Of a DNA stretch of 38,364 nucleotides, positions 829 to 7,806 are shown in pieces. The notes beneath the pieces are model-generated. The model saw only the letters and a list, made by a program, of their open reading frames with translations. It was not told the DNA's origin and ran no database searches. This DNA comes from Acidobacteriota bacterium (GTDB taxonomy: Bacteria > Acidobacteriota > JAAYUB01): assembly GCA_012517875.1 (NCBI GenBank), contig JAAYUB010000144.1:1-38364 (forward strand), given 5' to 3'. The stretch's first letter is position 1. The number at the start of each line of letters is the position of its first letter. A program made the position numbers and the translations under genes.

Positions 829-1500
829 ATGCACATCCCGTACGGACTGCTCTCCGCAGAGGTTTCGGTCGTAACCGGCGCGCTGGCGGCGCCGGCGGTG
901 GGGTTCGCCCTGTGGCGGGTCAGGCGGCGCTACGAGGAGCGGACGGTGGCCCTGATGGGCATGCTCGGGGCGTACGTCTTCGCCGCCCAGATGATCAACT
1001 TCCCCGTGGCCGCCGGCACCAGCGGCCATCTGCTCGGGGCCGCCCTGGCCGCCTTCCTACTGGGCCCCGCGCCGGCGATGCTCATCTTGGGCACCGTGCT
1101 GCTGGTCCAGGCGCTGCTGTTTCAGGACGGGGCGATCACTGCGCTCGGGGCCAACGCGCTGAACATGGCGGTGCTCGGGCCGCTCACCGCCTGGGGGATC
1201 TGGACCGGCTGGCGGCGGCTGCTGGGCGGACGCCTGGCCATGGCCGGGCGGGCGGTGGCGGCCGTCGCCTCCATCGTCGTCCCGGCGGCGGCCTGTGCCG
1301 TCGAGATTGCCGTCAGCGGGCTCTACCCGCTGACAGTGGCGCTTGGGGCCATGGCCGGCGTGCACACCGTCATCGGCGTGGCCGAGGCGGCCATCACCGT
1401 GGTGATCCTGCGGTTCCTGGCGGCGGCCCGGCCCGATCTGCTGGCGCCGGCCGGCGTCCCCGGAGGTGCGGCCCATGCCGCGGCGCAGTCCGTCGAATAG
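829..1500 (+). CDS. nikM: CbiM/NikM-type substrate-capture subunit of an ECF nickel (cobalt) transporter
   Basis: A 223-residue integral membrane protein with about six to seven hydrophobic helices. It begins MHIPYG; in NikM/CbiM the processed N-terminus with His2 forms the metal site, together with a His in the GTSGHLLG segment, here H67. Both are present. The consensus MHIPDG is changed at residue 5 (Tyr for Asp). FQDGAITALGANALNMAVLG (residues 98-117) is also family-typical. It starts 4 bp after nikR ends, so it is co-transcribed with it. The NikR neighbour argues for nickel over cobalt; the protein sequence alone would not decide this. No nickel enzyme is encoded in the window. Confidence 0.92.
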   Translation: MHIPYGLLSAEVSVVTGALAAPAVGFALWRVRRRYEERTVALMGMLGAYVFAAQMINFPVAAGTSGHLLGAALAAFLLGPAPAMLILGTVLLVQALLFQDGAITALGANALNMAVLGPLTAWGIWTGWRRLLGGRLAMAGRAVAAVASIVVPAAACAVEIAVSGLYPLTVALGAMAGVHTVIGVAEAAITVVILRFLAAARPDLLAPAGVPGGAAHAAAQSVE

Positions 1501-1771
1501 GCGCTGGCTGGCGCCGCTCGGCCTCATCGTGATCGGGCTGCTGTCGGCGGCGGCGGCCACCACGCCCGACGGCCTCGAGTGGGCGCTGGAACGGCTGGGT
1601 TACACGCCTTCGGCGGAGGACCCGTACCGTGCCCCGGTGCCCGACTACACCTGGCCCGCGAGCCTGCCCGCCACACTGCAGGGGATGCTGTCGGTGGCGG
1701 GCGGCGGGCTGCTGGTCTGGGGCCTGCTGAAGCTGATGACGCTCGGCCGCCGGCCGCCGGGGGGCGCATGA
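1475..1771 (+). CDS. nikN: PDGLE-domain small subunit (CbiN/NikN-like) of the nickel ECF transporter
   Basis: A 98-residue membrane protein with two hydrophobic segments (about residues 11-28 and 66-88) flanking a short extracytoplasmic loop. The loop carries the diagnostic PDGLEWALE (residues 31-39) just after the first helix. Proteins of this kind take the place of CbiN and assist the M subunit in metal loading. I chose ATG 1475 because GGAGG lies at 1462-1466 with an 8 nt gap; the in-frame GTG at 1466 overlaps that ribosome site. It overlaps the end of the M gene by 26 bp and its own stop overlaps the next start (ATGA at 1768-1771), so translation of the three membrane subunits is probably coupled. 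Confidence 0.88.
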   Translation: MPRRSPSNRRWLAPLGLIVIGLLSAAAATTPDGLEWALERLGYTPSAEDPYRAPVPDYTWPASLPATLQGMLSVAGGGLLVWGLLKLMTLGRRPPGGA

Positions 1772-2547
1772 GGCACGACTTCATCGACCACCACAGCCAC
1801 GGCGAAAGCCCGGTCCACCGGCTGCACCCGACGGCCAAGGTGCTCGCAGCGGCGGTGTTCCTGGCGGCGGCGGTGGGCGTCCCCTACCCCCGCTTCCTCC
1901 CGTTCCTGCCGCTGGCGGCGCTGGGGCTGCTGGCCGCGCTGTTGTGCCGGGTGCCGCTGCCGCACCTGGCGCGCAAGATGGTCTGGCCCCTGGGGCTCAC
2001 GGCGGCCACCGTCTGCCTGATGCCCGTCCTGCGGCCCGCCGGGGACGGGCTCGTCCTACTGGAGTCGCCGGTCCGGCTGGCCGTCTACCCCGAGAGCGCC
2101 CGGCTGGCCCTGCACGTGGTCGCCCGCGCCGCGGTGGCGCTGGCCGGGGCGGTGCTCCTTGTGGCCGCCACTCCGTTTCGGGACCTGCTCCGGGTGCTGG
2201 AGTCGTGGCACACGCCGGGCCTGCTGCTGCGCATCCTGGCCGTGTTCTACCGCTACCTGTTCATCCTGGTGGACGAGGCCGAACAGATGGAGCTCGCAGT
2301 GAGCGCCCGGCTGGTGGGCCCGGCCCCGCGCCTGCGACTGCTCCGGATGGCCGGCAATATGGCCGGGACGCTCTTCCTGCGCAGTCTGGAGCGGGGCGAG
2401 ACCGTCTACCAGGCCATGTGCGCCCGGGGATTCGACGGCCGCTTCCCGACACTGGACGCGCCGCGCTGGCGGGCGCCCGACGCGGCGACCCTGGCGCTGG
2501 CCGCCGCCGCCGGGATTCTAACCGTGCTCCTGGCGGTGCTCCCATGA
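1768..2547 (+). CDS. nikQ: CbiQ/NikQ, EcfT-type transmembrane coupling subunit
   Basis: A 259-residue membrane protein that couples the ATPase to the metal-binding M subunit. It starts MRHDFIDHHSHGESPVHRL, in which 'SPVHRLHPTAKV' is the usual CbiQ beginning, followed by four to five hydrophobic segments. The cytoplasmic coupling helices carry the two short Ala-Arg motifs of EcfT proteins: SARLVG (first motif, with Leu where Gly is common) and CARGFDGR (second motif, canonical). Start and stop overlap both neighbours by 4 bp (ATGA at 1768 and at 2544), the tightest packing in the operon. Confidence 0.92.
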   Translation: MRHDFIDHHSHGESPVHRLHPTAKVLAAAVFLAAAVGVPYPRFLPFLPLAALGLLAALLCRVPLPHLARKMVWPLGLTAATVCLMPVLRPAGDGLVLLESPVRLAVYPESARLALHVVARAAVALAGAVLLVAATPFRDLLRVLESWHTPGLLLRILAVFYRYLFILVDEAEQMELAVSARLVGPAPRLRLLRMAGNMAGTLFLRSLERGETVYQAMCARGFDGRFPTLDAPRWRAPDAATLALAAAAGILTVLLAVLP

Positions 2548-3317
2548 CCGGCGTCGCGGTGATCATGGAGGCGGCCGCCTACTGCTACCCGGACGGCCGG
2601 GTGGGCCTGCACCCCCTCTCGGTGACGTTTCCGGCGGGGCAGTGCACCGCGGTCATCGGCCCCAACGGCTCCGGCAAGTCCACCCTATTGGGCCTCCTCA
2701 ACGGGATCCGCCTGCCCCAGGCGGGGCGGGTGCGGGTGGGGGACCTGACGGTGGGCCGCGAGTGCCTGCCGGAGGTCCGGCGGATCGTGGGGCTTGTGTT
2801 CCAGGATCCCGACTGGCAGCTGTTCTGCCCCACCGTGGGCGAGGACGTCGCCTTCGGCCCGCTCAACCTGGGCCTCGCGCCGGCCGAGGCACGGGCCCGG
2901 GCCGAGGCCACCCTGGCCCGCGTGGGCCTGGCCGGCATGGCCGGCCGCTCCCCGTTCCACCTGTCCGGCGGCGAGAAGAAACTGGTCTCGCTGGCCACGG
3001 TGCTGGCGATGGAGCCGCCGGTGCTCGCCCTGGACGAGCCCACCGCCGGCCTCGACGCCGGCCATCGGCGGCTGCTGGCGGAGCTGGTACGGGCGCACCC
3101 CGGCACGCGGATCTTGGCCACTCACGACCTCGACTTTGCCATGGACACGGCCCACCACGCCTGCCTGCTCAGCGCCGGCACGCTGGCAGCCGCGGGGCCG
3201 GCCGACGAGTTGCTCCGCGACGCGGCGCTCCTGCACCGCCACGGCCTGGACCTGCCGCTGCGCCTCCAGGGACCGGGCGCCGCGGCTCCCCGATCGTCCG
3301 GGCAGGCGGCTTTTTGA
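2544..3317 (+). CDS. nikO: CbiO/NikO, ATP-binding subunit of the nickel ECF transporter
   Basis: A 257-residue ABC ATPase with all motifs in order: Walker A GPNGSGKST (residues 39-47), Q-loop FQDPDWQLF (Q87), signature LSGGE (140-144), Walker B VLALDEP (160-166), D-loop AGLD and switch His in ATHD (H194). It powers nickel uptake with NikM, NikN and NikQ encoded just upstream, overlapping the Q gene by 4 bp. A single ATPase gene implies a homodimer, as in group I ECF transporters. The last 20 or so residues are Ala/Pro/Gly-rich with no recognisable domain. A short T-run follows at 3311-3315 but I do not see a convincing terminator hairpin. Confidence 0.93.
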   Translation: MTGVAVIMEAAAYCYPDGRVGLHPLSVTFPAGQCTAVIGPNGSGKSTLLGLLNGIRLPQAGRVRVGDLTVGRECLPEVRRIVGLVFQDPDWQLFCPTVGEDVAFGPLNLGLAPAEARARAEATLARVGLAGMAGRSPFHLSGGEKKLVSLATVLAMEPPVLALDEPTAGLDAGHRRLLAELVRAHPGTRILATHDLDFAMDTAHHACLLSAGTLAAAGPADELLRDAALLHRHGLDLPLRLQGPGAAAPRSSGQAAF

Positions 3318-3336: not shown

Positions 3337-3366
3337 TTGACTTGACCGCAACCCATCGTCTATAAT
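3337..3366 (+). promoter_or_regulatory. Sigma-70-type promoter of the PLP enzyme / homoserine dehydrogenase / AOR operon
   Basis: TTGACT (3337-3342), an 18 bp spacer and a perfect TATAAT (3361-3366). Transcription would start near 3373, about 93 nt ahead of the first gene. Confidence 0.8.
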
Positions 3367-3374
3367 TTCAATCA

Positions 3375-3389
3375 TTCAGGTCCACTGAA
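3375..3389. promoter_or_regulatory. Small inverted repeat at the predicted transcription start
   Basis: TTCAG-GTCCA-CTGAA, a 5 bp perfect inverted repeat with a 5 nt centre, starting about 2 nt after the predicted +1. It could be a repressor site or a 5' hairpin that protects the mRNA. It is not the TGAA-N5-TTCA order of a MetR box. The 100 nt leader has no aptamer that I recognise. Confidence 0.3.
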
Positions 3390-3465
3390 CTATCCGACAG
3401 GCCAGCCGGCCAGCTTTTCCGAGACATTTCATCGTCGATCCATCATCCCGTCTGAGGAGGCAGTC

Positions 3466-4845
3466 ATGGATTCCAGCTACTCCGAGGGTGTGCGGCGTTA
3501 CATGCGCGAAGCCGAGGCCTACCTCGCCCGGCGGACCGCCTACCGGGAACAGGTCAAGCGGCTCAAGTTCGACACCATCGCCGTGCACGGCATGTACTCC
3601 GTCGAGGAGGCGTTCGCCAACGGCCAGGGCGGCATCATCGAGCCCATCTTTCCCTCCACGTCCCAGGCCTACCGCGATTCCGACGAGATGGAGGCCGGTC
3701 TGGCCTACCTGGTGCCCACCTGGTGTTACTCCCGCATCCACAACCCCACCGTTTACTACCTGGAGGAGACCCTGGCGCTGCTCGAGGGGTACGGCAGCGG
3801 CTGCGACACCACCGCGCTCTGCACCTCGGCCGGAATGGCCGCGATCAAACAAGCCGCCGAGCCGTTCCTGGAGATCCGCGACGGCGACATCCGCAACCTG
3901 AATTTCGTCTCCGCCGCCCAGGTGTACGGCGGCACCTTCCAGCTGTTCAACCTGCGCATGCGCGAGCGCGGCGCCCAGGTGCGCTGGGTCACCCGACCCT
4001 GGGAGATGACCGAGTGGGAGAAACTGGTTGACGACGGCACGCGCTTCCTGTACGCCGAAATGCCGTCCAACCCGCAGCAGGCCTGCTTCGACATCGCCGC
4101 GGTGGCGGAACTGGCCCACCGCCACGAGATCCCCTTGATCGTGGACGCCACCATCGCCACCCCGGCGCTGATGCGCCCCATCGCCCATGGCGCCGACATC
4201 GTGGTGCACTCGCTGACCAAGTCGGTGGGCAGCGGCGGCTTCACCATCGGCGGCGCCATCGTCGCCCGTCGCCCCGTCACCAGCCGGCACCTGCCCGACG
4301 ATGTCAAGGCCGACTACGGCCTCTGGCTGAAGCTCTGGCCGTTCCGCGACTCGGGGCCGTGCATGTCGGCCCACTCGGCCTTTTTCCTCCTGAGCGACCT
4401 GCGCCTCCTGCGCACCAAGATGGCGCTCTTCTCCCGCAACACCATGCAGGTGGCCCAGTACCTGGCCGGCCACCCGCGGGTGGCGAAGGTCGATTACCTC
4501 GGCCTGCCGAACCATCCGCTGCACGCCCTGGCCGCGCGCTACATGAAGCTGGCGGACAGCGACGAGGCCGCCTTCGGCCACCTGATGTCGTTCGACGTCC
4601 GCGGCACCGCCGCCGAGACCCGGCGCGTGTTCGACGGCTTCCAGCGCATCTGGCGGGCGACGGACCTGGGCCGGATCAAGTCGGTGGCCACCATCCCGGC
4701 CATCTCCACCCACCAGCAGCAGGGCGAGACCGGCCGCAAGCTCGCCGGCGTCGCGCCCACCATGATCCGGCTCTGCGTGGGCGGCGAGCATCCCGACGAC
4801 GTCATCGCGGACCTCGATCAGGCGCTCAAGGCGATCGGGAAATAG
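3466..4845 (+). CDS. Cys/Met-metabolism PLP-dependent enzyme (cystathionine gamma-synthase / O-acylhomoserine sulfhydrylase / Met gamma-lyase superfamily)
   Basis: A 459-residue fold-type I PLP enzyme. The visible pattern is YSRIHNPTV (88-96), SAGMAAI after the small domain, VDATIATP (226-233, Asp227 pairing with the cofactor ring nitrogen), and HSLTKSVGSGG with the Schiff-base Lys252. The C-terminus has RLCVGGEHPDDVIADL, the substrate-carboxylate Arg region of this family. It is longer than the usual 380-430 residues because of about 35 extra helical residues before the common start (FDTIAVHG). GAGGAGG at 3453-3459 precedes ATG 3466. It is followed after 61 bp by homoserine dehydrogenase, which suggests a homoserine-derived substrate, so C-S bond formation or cleavage around homocysteine or methionine. 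Which reaction it runs cannot be told from sequence. Confidence 0.82.
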   Translation: MDSSYSEGVRRYMREAEAYLARRTAYREQVKRLKFDTIAVHGMYSVEEAFANGQGGIIEPIFPSTSQAYRDSDEMEAGLAYLVPTWCYSRIHNPTVYYLEETLALLEGYGSGCDTTALCTSAGMAAIKQAAEPFLEIRDGDIRNLNFVSAAQVYGGTFQLFNLRMRERGAQVRWVTRPWEMTEWEKLVDDGTRFLYAEMPSNPQQACFDIAAVAELAHRHEIPLIVDATIATPALMRPIAHGADIVVHSLTKSVGSGGFTIGGAIVARRPVTSRHLPDDVKADYGLWLKLWPFRDSGPCMSAHSAFFLLSDLRLLRTKMALFSRNTMQVAQYLAGHPRVAKVDYLGLPNHPLHALAARYMKLADSDEAAFGHLMSFDVRGTAAETRRVFDGFQRIWRATDLGRIKSVATIPAISTHQQQGETGRKLAGVAPTMIRLCVGGEHPDDVIADLDQALKAIGK

Positions 4846-4852
4846 AAGAGAG

Positions 4853-4900
4853 GGTGAATCGGTGAATCGGGCTGAAACACGATCATAATCATCATAGGAG
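4853..4900 (+). repeat. Short tandem-repeat spacer inside the operon
   Basis: Two copies of GGTGAATC (4853-4868) followed by GGCTGAA-like and ATCAT-rich words. It is AT-richer than the genes on both sides. The words GTGAATCG and GGCTGAA recur (or occur in reverse complement) in the spacers near 8519 and 19175-19192. Confidence 0.5.
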
Positions 4901-4906
4901 GACTGT

Positions 4907-5929
4907 ATGCGGTTACTGTTCGTCGGATTCGGGACCGTGGGACAGGGGTTGGCCGAGCTGCTCCTGGAGAATCACGAGGCGCTCCGCAACGAGTACGGCC
5001 TGAACTGGACGGCGGTGGGCATCGCCGACATGCAGAAGGGCATGGTCTACCATCCCGACGGCATCAATCTGACCCAGGCGCTGGAGACGCTCAAGGCGGG
5101 CCACTCCCTCAACGAGCTGCCCCAGGCCTACACCCGCGGCGACGCGCTGGCCCTGATCGAGGAGGCCGAGGCCGACGTGATGCTCGAGGCCACCTACACC
5201 GACATCAAGACGGCCCAGCCGGCCACCGCCCACATCAAGGCCGCCCTCCAGCGCGGCCTGCACGTGGTGACCACCAACAAGGGTCCGCTGGCGCTGCACT
5301 ACGCCGAGCTGCACGCCCTGGCCAGGGCGCGGGGCACCCACTTCCTGTACGAAGGCACGGTCATGAGCGGCACCCCGTGCCTCAACCTGATTCGCGAGAC
5401 GCTGGCCGGCTCCGGCATCCAGGAGATCCGCGGCATCCTCAACGGCACCACCAACTACATCCTGACCCGGATGGAGGAGGGGCTGTCCTACGCCGACGCC
5501 CTGAAGAAGGCCCAGGAGCTGGGCTACGCCGAGGCGGTCCCCGACGCCGACGTGCTGGGCTGGGACGCCCTGGCCAAGGTGACTATCCTGGCCAACACGG
5601 TCTTCGGCGCCACGAAGAAGCCGTTCGACTACCCGTGCGACGGGATCACGAAGATCAGCGCCGAGGCGATCGCCGAGGCCAAGCAGAAGGGATTCCGCTA
5701 CAAACTCATCGGCCGGGTCTGGCGCGAGGGGGGCGAGGTGCACGCCTCGGTGGCGCCCATGCAGATCCCCCTGAGCCACCCGCTGGCCGGCGTGATGGGC
5801 GCCACGAACGCCGTCACCATCAAGTCCCGCGCCATGGGCGACGTAACCATCGTCGGCCCGGGCGCCGGCCGCACCGAAACCGGCTACAGCATGCTCATCG
5901 ACCTGCTCCACATCGCCCGGACGCACTGA
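4907..5929 (+). CDS. hom: Homoserine dehydrogenase without ACT domain
   Basis: A 340-residue NAD(P)-dependent enzyme interconverting L-aspartate 4-semialdehyde and L-homoserine. The Rossmann fold opens with VGFGTVGQG (6-14), then VTTNKGPLA (121-129), EGTVMSG (149-155), NGTTNYIL (179-186) and DVLGWDALAK, in which D220 and K224 match the catalytic Asp and Lys of the family. The protein ends right after GPGAGRTETGYSML, so it lacks the C-terminal ACT domain and is unlikely to be feedback-inhibited by threonine in the usual way. There is no aspartokinase, semialdehyde dehydrogenase, thrB or thrC gene beside it; the flanking genes are a Cys/Met PLP enzyme and a tungsten-type aldehyde oxidoreductase. 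An AGGAGG (4896-4901) precedes the ATG. Confidence 0.9.
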   Translation: MRLLFVGFGTVGQGLAELLLENHEALRNEYGLNWTAVGIADMQKGMVYHPDGINLTQALETLKAGHSLNELPQAYTRGDALALIEEAEADVMLEATYTDIKTAQPATAHIKAALQRGLHVVTTNKGPLALHYAELHALARARGTHFLYEGTVMSGTPCLNLIRETLAGSGIQEIRGILNGTTNYILTRMEEGLSYADALKKAQELGYAEAVPDADVLGWDALAKVTILANTVFGATKKPFDYPCDGITKISAEAIAEAKQKGFRYKLIGRVWREGGEVHASVAPMQIPLSHPLAGVMGATNAVTIKSRAMGDVTIVGPGAGRTETGYSMLIDLLHIARTH

Positions 5930-5957
5930 CGCCGCCGGCGCCCACAGGAGGTACGCC

Positions 5958-7745
5958 ATGTACAAGGGCTACATGAACCGCTTTCTCGAGGTTGACTTGA
6001 CCCATCGCACGTTCCGTTTCGGCCAGCCCGATCCGTCGCTCTTCGCCGGCTGGATCGGCGGCAAGGGCGTCGGTCTGAAACTCATGGTGGACCGGGGGCT
6101 CGTCACTCATGACCCGTTCGCCCCGGACAATCCGCTCATCTTCATGACCGGGCCGTTCACCGGCACCCAGGTCCAGACGTCGGCCCGTTCGGTGGTCTGC
6201 ACCAAGTCGCCGCTCACCGGCACGTTCCTCGACACCCACGCCGGCGGCCACTTCGGACCGGCGCTCAAGAAGGCCGGCCTTGACTGGATCTGGATCACCG
6301 GCGAGAGCGACCGGCCGGTCTACCTCCATGTGCGCCCCGGCGAGGTCCGCTTCGAGGATGCCGCCCACCTCTGGGGCAAAGGGATATTCGAGACGGAGAA
6401 GGCGCTCCGCGAAGCGTACCCCAAGGCCCGCGTGGCCCTGATCGGTCCGGCCGGCGAGAACCGCGTCCGCTTCGCCTGCATCGGCACCGAGCTGTACCGC
6501 CAGTACGGCCGCGGCGGCGCCGGCGCGGTCATGGGCGCCAAGAATCTCAAGGCGCTCGTCGTGGAGGGCGACGAGAAAATCGCCTACCACGACCCCGCCG
6601 GCTTCCAAGAGCTGAACCGGCAGCTCACCAAAGACATCGTCGCCCACCCCAACCGGCAGCGCCGCGACGACCTCGGCACCATGATGTGGATCCGCATGGG
6701 CCAGGAACAGGGGCACTTCCTCCCCACTCACAACTGGCGCGACACCCAGTTCGCCGGTTACGAGGGAATCACCTCCGAGGCATGCCGCGAGAAACTGGCC
6801 TGGAAGAGCACCGGCTGCTTCAACTGCGCCATCCGCTGCTCCAAGGAGGCGCGCTGGGGAAATTATGAGGTGGAGGGCCCCGAGTACGAGACCACCGCCT
6901 TTCTCGGTTCCGGCTGCGACATCGATTCGGCCGAGGCGGTGGCCTATGCCAACTGGCTGTGCGACGACCTGGGGCTCGACACCATCTCGGCAGGCGTGGT
7001 CTGCTCCTTCGCCATGGAGGCGTTCGAGCGGGGCATCATCAGCGCGGCGGACACTGGGGGCGTTGCGCTCCATTTCGGCAGCGCCGAGGCCCAGGCCGCC
7101 CTGCTCCGCCAGATCGCCCACCGTGAGAAGATCGGCGACCTGCTCGCCGAAGGCACCCGCATCGCCGCCCGGCGCATCGGCAAGGGGAGCGACTACTTCG
7201 CCATCCAGATCGCCGGCATGGAGCTGTCGGGGGTGAACATCAAAGGATGCGCCTCCATGGGCCTGACCCTGGCCACGTCCGATTTCGCCTCCCACACCCG
7301 GTTCTGGTCCGCCTCGGCGGAGATGCGGAAAGAGCTGACCTGGGAGAGCACGCCCGATTTCGTGCGCATCGGCCAGGATGTCGTGAACACCCGGAACTGC
7401 CTCATCGTCTGCGATTTCGTGATGTACGACCTCGACCGGCTGGCGCCGGTGTTCGAGAAGTGCACCGGCATCCCCATGAGCGAGACGGACATGAACCGGC
7501 TCGGCAACAAGATCTCCAACCTGACCCGCCTCTACAACATCGCCAACGGCCGCACCCGCGCCGACGACACCCTGCCGCCGCGCTTCTTCCAGGAGCCCCA
7601 CGAGGCGGGGCTCTTCGAGGGGCGGCGCCTCACCCGGGAGAAGTTCGCCGAATGGCTGGACATGTACTACGCTTCGCGCGGCTGGGACGCCGCCGGCGCC
7701 CCCACACCGGCCACGCTCACCGAGCTGGGACTGAACCCGATCTGA
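5958..7745 (+). CDS. aor: Aldehyde:ferredoxin oxidoreductase family protein (tungsten enzyme)
   Basis: A 595-residue AOR-family enzyme, near the usual 605. These enzymes use a tungsten-bispyranopterin and one [4Fe-4S] cluster to convert aldehydes and acids with ferredoxin as electron carrier. Visible markers are GGKGVGLKLM (34-43), KSPLTGTFLDTHAGGHFG (83-100), LIGPAGENRVRFACI (161-175) and RGGAGAVMGAKNLKAL (185-200) in the N-terminal pterin-binding domain. Cluster ligands are C287-x2-C290-x3-C294 and, by position, C485 in NTRNCLIVCDF. The last element stands where typical enzymes have DxxGLC, so the usual Asp and Gly are replaced; this could alter pterin contacts or substrate choice. It starts 28 bp after homoserine dehydrogenase, behind AGGAGG, and ends at a terminator. 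No molybdopterin or ferredoxin genes are near. Substrate unknown. Confidence 0.9.
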   Translation: MYKGYMNRFLEVDLTHRTFRFGQPDPSLFAGWIGGKGVGLKLMVDRGLVTHDPFAPDNPLIFMTGPFTGTQVQTSARSVVCTKSPLTGTFLDTHAGGHFGPALKKAGLDWIWITGESDRPVYLHVRPGEVRFEDAAHLWGKGIFETEKALREAYPKARVALIGPAGENRVRFACIGTELYRQYGRGGAGAVMGAKNLKALVVEGDEKIAYHDPAGFQELNRQLTKDIVAHPNRQRRDDLGTMMWIRMGQEQGHFLPTHNWRDTQFAGYEGITSEACREKLAWKSTGCFNCAIRCSKEARWGNYEVEGPEYETTAFLGSGCDIDSAEAVAYANWLCDDLGLDTISAGVVCSFAMEAFERGIISAADTGGVALHFGSAEAQAALLRQIAHREKIGDLLAEGTRIAARRIGKGSDYFAIQIAGMELSGVNIKGCASMGLTLATSDFASHTRFWSASAEMRKELTWESTPDFVRIGQDVVNTRNCLIVCDFVMYDLDRLAPVFEKCTGIPMSETDMNRLGNKISNLTRLYNIANGRTRADDTLPPRFFQEPHEAGLFEGRRLTREKFAEWLDMYYASRGWDAAGAPTPATLTELGLNPI

Positions 7746-7777
7746 CCGGCGGCCCGCGGCCCACGGCTACCCCTTTC

Positions 7778-7806
7778 AGCGGACGGCATTCGCCGTCCGC
7801 TTTTTT
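7778..7806 (+). terminator. Intrinsic terminator after the AOR operon
   Basis: A perfect 10 bp stem, AGCGGACGGC / GCCGTCCGCT, with a 4 nt loop (ATTC), leading directly into TTTTTT (7801-7806). It lies 33 bp after the AOR stop codon. Confidence 0.9.

Follow-up and report, generated by a model that had tools for sequence, protein, structure and literature searches.

The DNA analysed here, called the window, is a stretch of 38,364 nucleotides on contig C144 of a 4.02-Mb Acidobacteriota genome in 182 contigs. It carries a unit of three intact open reading frames (ORFs), all on the forward strand, that encode a pyridoxal-phosphate (PLP) enzyme of a distinct subfamily within the Cys/Met metabolism family (3466..4845, 459 aa, PF01053), the catalytic domains of a homoserine dehydrogenase (HSD) without an ACT domain (4907..5929, 340 aa, PRK06270) and a single-subunit aldehyde:ferredoxin oxidoreductase (AOR) of a clade linked to HSD (5958..7745, 595 aa, PF02730 and PF01314). 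We propose, at a probability of about 0.6, that the unit serves a presumed anaerobe as a catabolic module leading from homoserine to aspartate, an oxidative exit in which AOR takes the place of an aldehyde dehydrogenase (ALDH). The proposal joins four observations, namely the order of the genes, the return of this order in distant lineages, the exchange of AOR and ALDH, and the residues of the AOR clade, to a predicted biochemistry. On these comparisons the unit would be a ferredoxin-linked variant of a known homoserine and canavanine catabolic route.

Recurrence of the PLP-HSD-AOR unit

The three-gene unit is real, intact and conserved. ORF, Pfam and motif scans bore out the initial annotation, which had described three intact genes with one promoter, one terminator and gaps of 61 bp (PLP to HSD) and 28 bp (HSD to AOR). 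It had also asked whether the same order occurs in other genomes, holding that restriction to this one would refute the pathway idea, and the order does occur elsewhere. Loci were fetched via the PLP protein; 156 were confirmed as members of its subfamily, and neighbours were counted in the best 80, all of them named, taking as near anything within 5 kb of the PLP gene (many contigs end sooner) and dropping ALDH matches below 40% identity; the first neighbourhood map was drawn with a crude ORF picker and has some high-GC frames wrong. HSD was near the PLP gene in 32 loci, AOR in 9, ALDH in 23 and threonine synthase in 32, and none of these four was near it in 13/80 loci, several of them on short contigs. 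All nine AOR loci had HSD as well, eight of them in the order PLP-HSD-AOR (L034, L035, L088, L089, L098, L101, L103 and L107) and the ninth, L049, in the order AOR-PLP-HSD. Two of the eight, L034 and L035, are close copies of the window: they are its closest named relatives, Acidobacteriota metagenome-assembled genomes with a PLP protein 95% identical to that of the window. Four others (L098, L101, L103, L107) are titled Bacteroidetes or Bacteroidales, and L088 and L089 are titled uncultured bacterium; the proteins of L103 are 55% (PLP), 51% (HSD) and 49% (AOR) identical to those of the window.

HSD and threonine synthase were never found together (0/80 loci). AOR (9) or ALDH (20) accompanied HSD in 28 of the 32 HSD loci, L103 having both, and ALDH occurred without HSD in three loci (L061, L085, L092). 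Genes for a DapA-like protein, a ThrB-type homoserine kinase and an SDR protein follow HSD or AOR in L098, L101 and L099, the last with HSD and no AOR seen; the DapA-like and ThrB-type families were scanned on the L099 members.

A search anchored on AOR covered 396 genomes of the phylum, with at most three candidates scored per genome. Among the matches listed, AORs of the window's clade occurred in at least seven genomes outside the genus (47-66% identity), and the next AORs listed stood at 41% or below. In longer stretches, HSD lay in the AOR's own gene run in five of seven clade members (L172-L175 and L178); the AOR of L176 is at a contig edge. In flanks of up to about 6 kb, none of 23 other AORs had an HSD, PLP, ALDH or threonine synthase gene; these controls were the 20 best-scoring other loci of the AOR search, not a random draw, and three from the window's own genome, and on several of their contigs, L184, L186, L191 and L199-L201 among them, at least one of the two flanks is shorter than 6 kb. 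HSD and AOR thus make up a core that stays the same while the front enzyme changes. L172 and L173 have the order AOR, aminotransferase, uncharacterised protein, HSD, and gene sizes suggest it for L174 too; a different aminotransferase precedes AOR in L175; and in L178 the PLP gene before HSD and AOR belongs to the PRK08249 family (665 and 764 bits against a cut-off of 600), as in an operon of Priestia described below. This variation fits different front enzymes feeding homoserine or aspartate semialdehyde into the core.

Two side observations concern the neighbours of HSD. A conserved protein of 411-414 aa, 62-88% identical between loci, is encoded next to HSD both in operons of the phylum that have AOR and in six loci of Aminicenantes (L172:5323-6564, L173:4872-6107 on the reverse strand, L174:8335-9570, L175:1578-2819 on the reverse strand, L082:3909-5141). 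It had no Pfam match in the four members scanned (L172, L173, L175, L082) and no NCBIfam match at strict thresholds in L082 and L173, and its AlphaFold model, with a mean pLDDT of 47, was too poor to use. In the Aminicenantes loci L064, L066, L070, L082, L090 and L093 the PLP gene follows genes for an SDR protein, a small protein labelled as a cupin by its look, not by scan, and an aminotransferase; the distance to HSD is about 4 kb.

AOR and ALDH beside homoserine dehydrogenase

The window HSD has NAD_binding_3 and Homoserine_dh domains by Pfam and scores 413 bits against the PRK06270 equivalog, above the cut-off of 373. The initial annotation had singled it out as a lone HSD without an ACT domain. 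The missing domain stands, but the gene is not special in this respect: the genome has three HSDs, and the other two (358 and 349 aa, best match PRK06270, below cut-off) are also short. The window HSD is 44-50% identical to HSDs on plasmids of Rhizobium, Mesorhizobium and Priestia; we viewed the neighbourhoods of five of the 40 listed plasmid matches, and in all five HSD is followed by ALDH. Kinship to these ALDH-followed enzymes is what suggests a catabolic preference of the window HSD. A passage of PMC10228743 cites a group of HSDs with a strong bias towards oxidising homoserine; one R. leguminosarum HSD is a member.

In most of the 20 HSD loci with ALDH, no more than about 1.2 kb separates the ALDH gene from the PLP gene. 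The one ALDH scanned, that of L044, belongs to PF00171, and its nearest models (lactaldehyde, sulfoacetaldehyde and phosphonoacetaldehyde dehydrogenase) are all under their cut-offs. Identity of the L044 ALDH is 60% with the one encoded behind HSD on a Priestia megaterium plasmid; with the corresponding ALDHs of three Rhizobium or Mesorhizobium plasmids it is 50-51%, and these three rhizobial loci also carry an aspartate ammonia-lyase, a DapA-like protein, a homoserine kinase or phosphotransferase and an Lrp-type or other winged-helix regulator. On an HSD tree of 48 rows the label AOR-linked needs three changes, at least two of them forced by supported branches, so that AOR and ALDH have swapped places near HSD more than once on the sampled rows. 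The window HSD groups (support 95/95) with the AOR-linked HSD of L049 and the ALDH-linked HSD of L070; its grouping with ten further ALDH-linked HSDs has lower support (85/78). This tree was built without L001, L004-L006, L009, L010, L013, L014, L120, L142-L144 and L151; L179-L181 lay outside the ORF set used, L002, L003 and L115-L119 each appear once, under a different name, and L053 is absent, its HSD being in two pieces. L103, with both AOR and ALDH, was labelled AOR-linked, and several HSD rows are long branches.

The window AOR is full length in both domains, AFOR_N (PF02730, 247 bits) and AFOR_C (PF01314, 359 bits), and no gene for a partner subunit adjoins it. By family it would be a tungsten-type enzyme with a bis-pterin cofactor and with ferredoxin as its partner. 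The four [4Fe-4S] cysteines (C287, C290, C294, C485) are kept in 17/17 rows of the clade, and the equivalents of Thr243, Glu313 and His448 of the Pyrococcus furiosus AOR (PfAOR) are kept in the window AOR as T241, E311 and H446. In these features it resembles PfAOR and the other Class I tungsten oxidoreductases. It differs from them in its linkage to HSD, in a specific set of Arg, Asp and Asn residues, and at the position of Tyr427, which is Val in the window and Val (13) or Ile (4) across the 17 clade rows, whereas 22 of 23 other AORs have Tyr. The window AOR thus keeps three of the four second-shell residues Thr243, Glu313, Tyr427 and His448, and lacks the full canonical set, which, by the passages of PMC13328260 and PMC12096430 that deal with it, marks most but not all aldehyde-oxidising members. 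A passage of PMC12096430 proposes that Tyr427 positions or hydrogen-bonds the aldehyde. Residues R236, W282, W300, N427, N477, R479 and N480, together with D486, N530, R532 and others besides, are kept in 17/17 clade rows and are absent or rare in the 23 other AORs; Arg at position 236 also occurs in the AORs of L013 and L014, which lie outside the clade. As a guess, some of the clade's Arg and Asp residues might contact the amino-acid end of the substrate. Glutaric semialdehyde has been proposed as the natural substrate of another family member, FOR, in a passage of PMC12096430.

On a tree of 45 AOR rows the 15 HSD-linked AORs, together with L176 and L177, formed one group with a support of 99/99; nine of the 15 HSD-linked rows had been fetched via the PLP protein. 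The AOR of L013 and L014 (extended as L179 and L180), beside PLP and HSD genes, forms a separate long branch apart from the main clade, and represents a second, independent recruitment of an AOR to the PLP/HSD unit in two genomes of one genus. In L179 (3727-8572) and in L180 this distantly related AOR comes directly after the PLP gene, with HSD upstream. The window's genome has four proteins of the AOR family. The tree left out L001, L004-L006, L120 and L142-L151 (partial copies or copies replaced by longer stretches), held duplicate rows of three own-genome AORs, which were removed for the residue comparison, and has long branches for the own-genome AORs and for L013 and L014.

Proposed route, known parallels and alternatives

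In the route that we propose, the PLP enzyme would remove the gamma-substituent of a gamma-substituted 2-aminobutyrate and add water, giving homoserine; methionine, cystathionine, canavanine and an O-substituted homoserine are candidate substrates. HSD, as its family and kin suggest, would then oxidise homoserine to aspartate semialdehyde with NAD(P)+, and the tungsten-type AOR, judged by its exchange with ALDH and its linkage to HSD, would oxidise aspartate semialdehyde to aspartate and pass two electrons to ferredoxin. Comparative evidence supports the core of the initial annotation, namely a unit for a C4 amino aldehyde with an AOR that acts on aspartate semialdehyde. That annotation had offered two directions: the oxidative exit fits, because an NAD-type ALDH takes the place of AOR in sister loci, and a ferredoxin-driven entry that bypasses aspartokinase does not, given the genes for the aspartate route elsewhere in the genome and the swap with PF00171. 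Its interpretation is thereby supported in part, in its C4 aldehyde core and not in the direction of a bypass.

The first step is the weakest of the three, and the PLP enzyme is a predicted gamma-lyase or hydrolase releasing homoserine. The protein matches Cys_Met_Meta_PP (PF01053, E=4.5e-82) and meets the curated NCBIfam cut-off of none of the 25 families listed (of 47); its best match is TIGR01326, O-acetylhomoserine sulfhydrylase, at 292.5 bits (cut-off 495.1), and it scores 224.8 bits against TIGR01328, methionine gamma-lyase (cut-off 549.7). It shares with these enzymes the fold family and, in the alignment (97 family rows, 94 different sequences), the Tyr, Arg, Tyr, PLP-Lys and C-terminal Arg motifs, which presumably serve in binding PLP and substrate. 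Unlike them it forms a separate subfamily with an N-terminal extension of its own. Gly-His follows the PLP lysine in five of seven other aligned sequences and in 0/96 readable family rows (of 98); a C-terminal stretch, LGR-KS-ATIPAISTH, is mostly kept in 95% of the 98 rows (two positions 80%), with TIPAISTH where other PF01053 sequences have HPAS-TH. Homoserine is a likely intermediate, since the partners of the PLP gene, HSD with ALDH or AOR in some loci and threonine synthase with homoserine kinase in others, are two outlets for homoserine. In the threonine-synthase loci an apgM-type proposed homoserine kinase is present in 20/32, and ThrH in some; the toxicity of homoserine to E. coli is relieved by conversion to threonine, according to a passage of PMC9792984. 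We also considered whether the PLP enzyme supplies homoserine in genomes that lack HSD, and did not use the idea as evidence: 5/24 PLP-family genomes, chosen rather than sampled, had no PF00742, all five with the PLP gene by threonine synthase or an apgM-type kinase, but PF00742 is absent from 49/199 searched genomes of the phylum, a quarter, so these cases prove nothing. As a separate observation, an Agrobacterium vitis plasmid (L114:5359-17308) carries the closest plasmid-borne relative of the PLP protein (42-44%), in a context that looks like a biosynthetic cluster with a diaminobutyrate transaminase, an N-monooxygenase, a KAS III and a carbamoyltransferase.

The closest known systems appear to be the homoserine and canavanine catabolic operons, which the initial annotation did not mention. 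The canavanine pathway of Pseudomonas canavaninivorans and rhizobia (canavanine gamma-lyase, HSD, aspartate-semialdehyde dehydrogenase, aspartate ammonia-lyase) likewise joins an HSD and an enzyme turning aldehyde into acid to a PLP enzyme of the Cys/Met fold; the canavanine lyase step is reportedly followed by the activities of HSD and aspartate-semialdehyde dehydrogenase. We read two plasmid loci as canavanine operons from their B3/4 gene and gene order; L118 has a B3/4-domain protein, ABC transporter genes, PLP enzyme, SMR transporter, HSD and ALDH, and then a DapA-like protein, an aspartate ammonia-lyase, a phosphotransferase and an Lrp regulator. The HSDs of the two loci are 46-47% identical to the window HSD, and their ALDHs are among those similar to that of L044. 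According to passages of PMC10018355, the canavanine operon of P. canavaninivorans is preceded by the gene for a B3/4 protein, which has a homologue beside canavanine genes, and in the operon a PLP lyase that releases homoserine stands with genes for handling homoserine. The window differs in having AOR in the place of ALDH, and no B3/4 gene or amino-acid ABC transporter was found among the flanking window genes scanned. The canavanine pathway proper was rejected for the window, whose PLP enzyme is not the PLP protein of the plasmid operons.

A homoserine catabolism cluster of R. leguminosarum is cited in a passage of PMC10228743, and in our own reading L116 and L119 represent it: they carry HSD, ALDH, a DapA-like protein, aspartate ammonia-lyase, homoserine kinase and an Lrp regulator, with no PLP gene adjoining HSD. 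The likeness to the window lies in HSD with an aldehyde-to-acid gene, and the DapA-like and homoserine kinase genes are shared with L098, L101 and L099; the differences are the lack of a PLP lyase beside HSD, the NAD-type ALDH and the aerobic hosts. On a Priestia megaterium plasmid (L117:1291-8512) M24 and M20 peptidases, a cyclodeaminase, a PRK08249-type PLP enzyme, HSD and ALDH lie in one run with eutB upstream; this is likely a related catabolic operon, perhaps linked to hydroxyectoine use. No account of the PLP-HSD-AOR unit was found among the matches listed from open-licence literature, which does not establish its absence from print, and a text search of PMC13328260 found neither 'homoserine' nor 'semialdehyde'.

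Several observations weigh against a homoserine-to-aspartate module. With Tyr427 replaced in all 17 clade AORs, the usual AOR chemistry is not guaranteed. The window PLP protein is 26-27% identical to that of the canavanine plasmid loci, as against 55% to that of L103. The threonine-synthase neighbours would fit equally well a biosynthetic PLP enzyme that uses phosphohomoserine. In L064, L066 and L070 the HSD or ALDH gene is kilobases from the PLP gene or on the opposite strand, so not all 20 ALDH loci are operons. HSD is missing from the roughly 5.6 kb around the clade AOR of L177, and L172-L175 have HSD and AOR with an aminotransferase and an uncharacterised protein instead of a PLP gene of this family.

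The unit might instead be biosynthetic, AOR with reduced ferredoxin turning aspartate into the semialdehyde, HSD making homoserine and the PLP enzyme homocysteine or cystathionine, in a bypass of aspartokinase. AOR reactions are, as is generally known, reversible in principle, and the NCBIfam model to which the PLP enzyme comes closest, under its cut-off, is a sulfhydrylase. The initial annotation had suggested looking for lysC and asd, and the genome has both, side by side on contig C115: aspartokinase (334.8 bits, cut-off 208.7) adjoins aspartate-semialdehyde dehydrogenase (TIGR00978, 431.9 bits, cut-off 301.2), and threonine synthase is on contig C16. With the aspartate route present no bypass is needed, and we rejected this one. 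A PF00171 ALDH, of an enzyme type generally held not to reduce a free acid, stands in 20/32 HSD loci, and ALDH follows HSD in each plasmid locus viewed, all of which leaves a biosynthetic unit quite improbable. A reading in which a methionine gamma-lyase is joined by an AOR that scavenges methional or other aldehydes, with HSD as an unrelated passenger, is unlikely, if less so. In L037, L048 and L052 a second Cys/Met PLP gene does precede the PLP gene at a distance of 0.2-2.7 kb, the one scanned (L052) being nearest methionine gamma-lyase models (459 bits against a cut-off of 666), and PfAOR is thought, in a passage of PMC13328260, to detoxify aldehydes derived from amino acids. Yet the window PLP enzyme falls far below the methionine gamma-lyase cut-off, and HSD partners the clade AOR even without the PLP gene (L172-L175) or with another PLP subfamily (L178). 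The general aldehyde detoxification that the initial annotation had offered as a plainer alternative is disfavoured too: HSD stood by none of the 23 other AORs, as against 5/7 clade members found through the AOR-anchored search.

We give similarly low odds to a cluster that balances the homoserine node, in which HSD and AOR form a branch from homoserine to aspartate and the PLP enzyme consumes homoserine derivatives, for example by sulfhydrylation of phosphohomoserine. The 32/80 loci with the PLP gene by threonine synthase, and the proposed kinase in 20 of them, suit this reading, as does the YGGT site of the PLP enzyme, which we take to be the counterpart of Cys116 of methionine gamma-lyase; YGGT occurs in sulfhydrylase-like sequences, though lyase-like PRK08249 sequences share it. 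It leaves unexplained the oxidising ALDH or AOR beside HSD in 28/32 loci, and the known parallel operon, in the passage of PMC10018355 cited above, has a PLP lyase that releases homoserine.

A broader version of the homoserine-to-aspartate module, to which we give a little less than even odds, would be a widespread anaerobic pathway made of a new PLP gamma-lyase subfamily, HSD and an AOR clade specialised for aspartate semialdehyde, coupled to ferredoxin reduction, with AOR and ALDH swapped more than once; within it methionine would be the most abundant candidate substrate. Two lines, the operon partners and the exchange with a known type of dehydrogenase, point to aspartate semialdehyde as the substrate of the clade. 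If so, this would be a new role for the tungsten enzyme family, adding an amino-acid semialdehyde to its substrates, and it would show how anaerobes could save, through ferredoxin, the low-potential electrons from homoserine that an NAD-linked ALDH would lose. It would also give a first function to an unnamed Cys/Met PLP subfamily whose nearest named models are sulfhydrylases.

Promoter, leader and surroundings

A promoter-like site, TTGACT-18-TATAAT, lies in front of the unit (3337..3366, forward strand, 11/12 consensus matches); one such sigma-70-like site was found against 0.5 expected in shuffles. L034 and L035, from the same genus, have exactly its two hexamers with a different spacer between them. 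The 5' leader that follows (3367..3465, forward strand) differs from L034 at six positions over its last 78 bases, 3388-3465, and the promoter spacer and upstream DNA are far more divergent. This part is a possible regulatory leader; an Rfam scan of the window at the gathering threshold gave no match, in the leader or elsewhere. Downstream of AOR there is an intrinsic-terminator-like hairpin with a T-run (7778..7806, forward strand), its 10-bp stem (7778-7801) having eight G-C pairs. The number of such terminator-like sites was not above chance (three found, 2.2 expected), and the stem at 7778 is the longest of the three.

Directly upstream, at 829-3317, a cobalt/nickel-type ECF transporter is encoded by CbiM, CbiQ and ABC-ATPase genes, and the downstream neighbour of the unit is a gene for an HD-domain protein; with these flanks the unit appears to stand alone. 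Long antisense open frames lie opposite the PLP gene (3376-4791, reverse strand) and the AOR gene (5895-7601, reverse strand), and were not counted as genes because such frames are usual in high-GC coding DNA.

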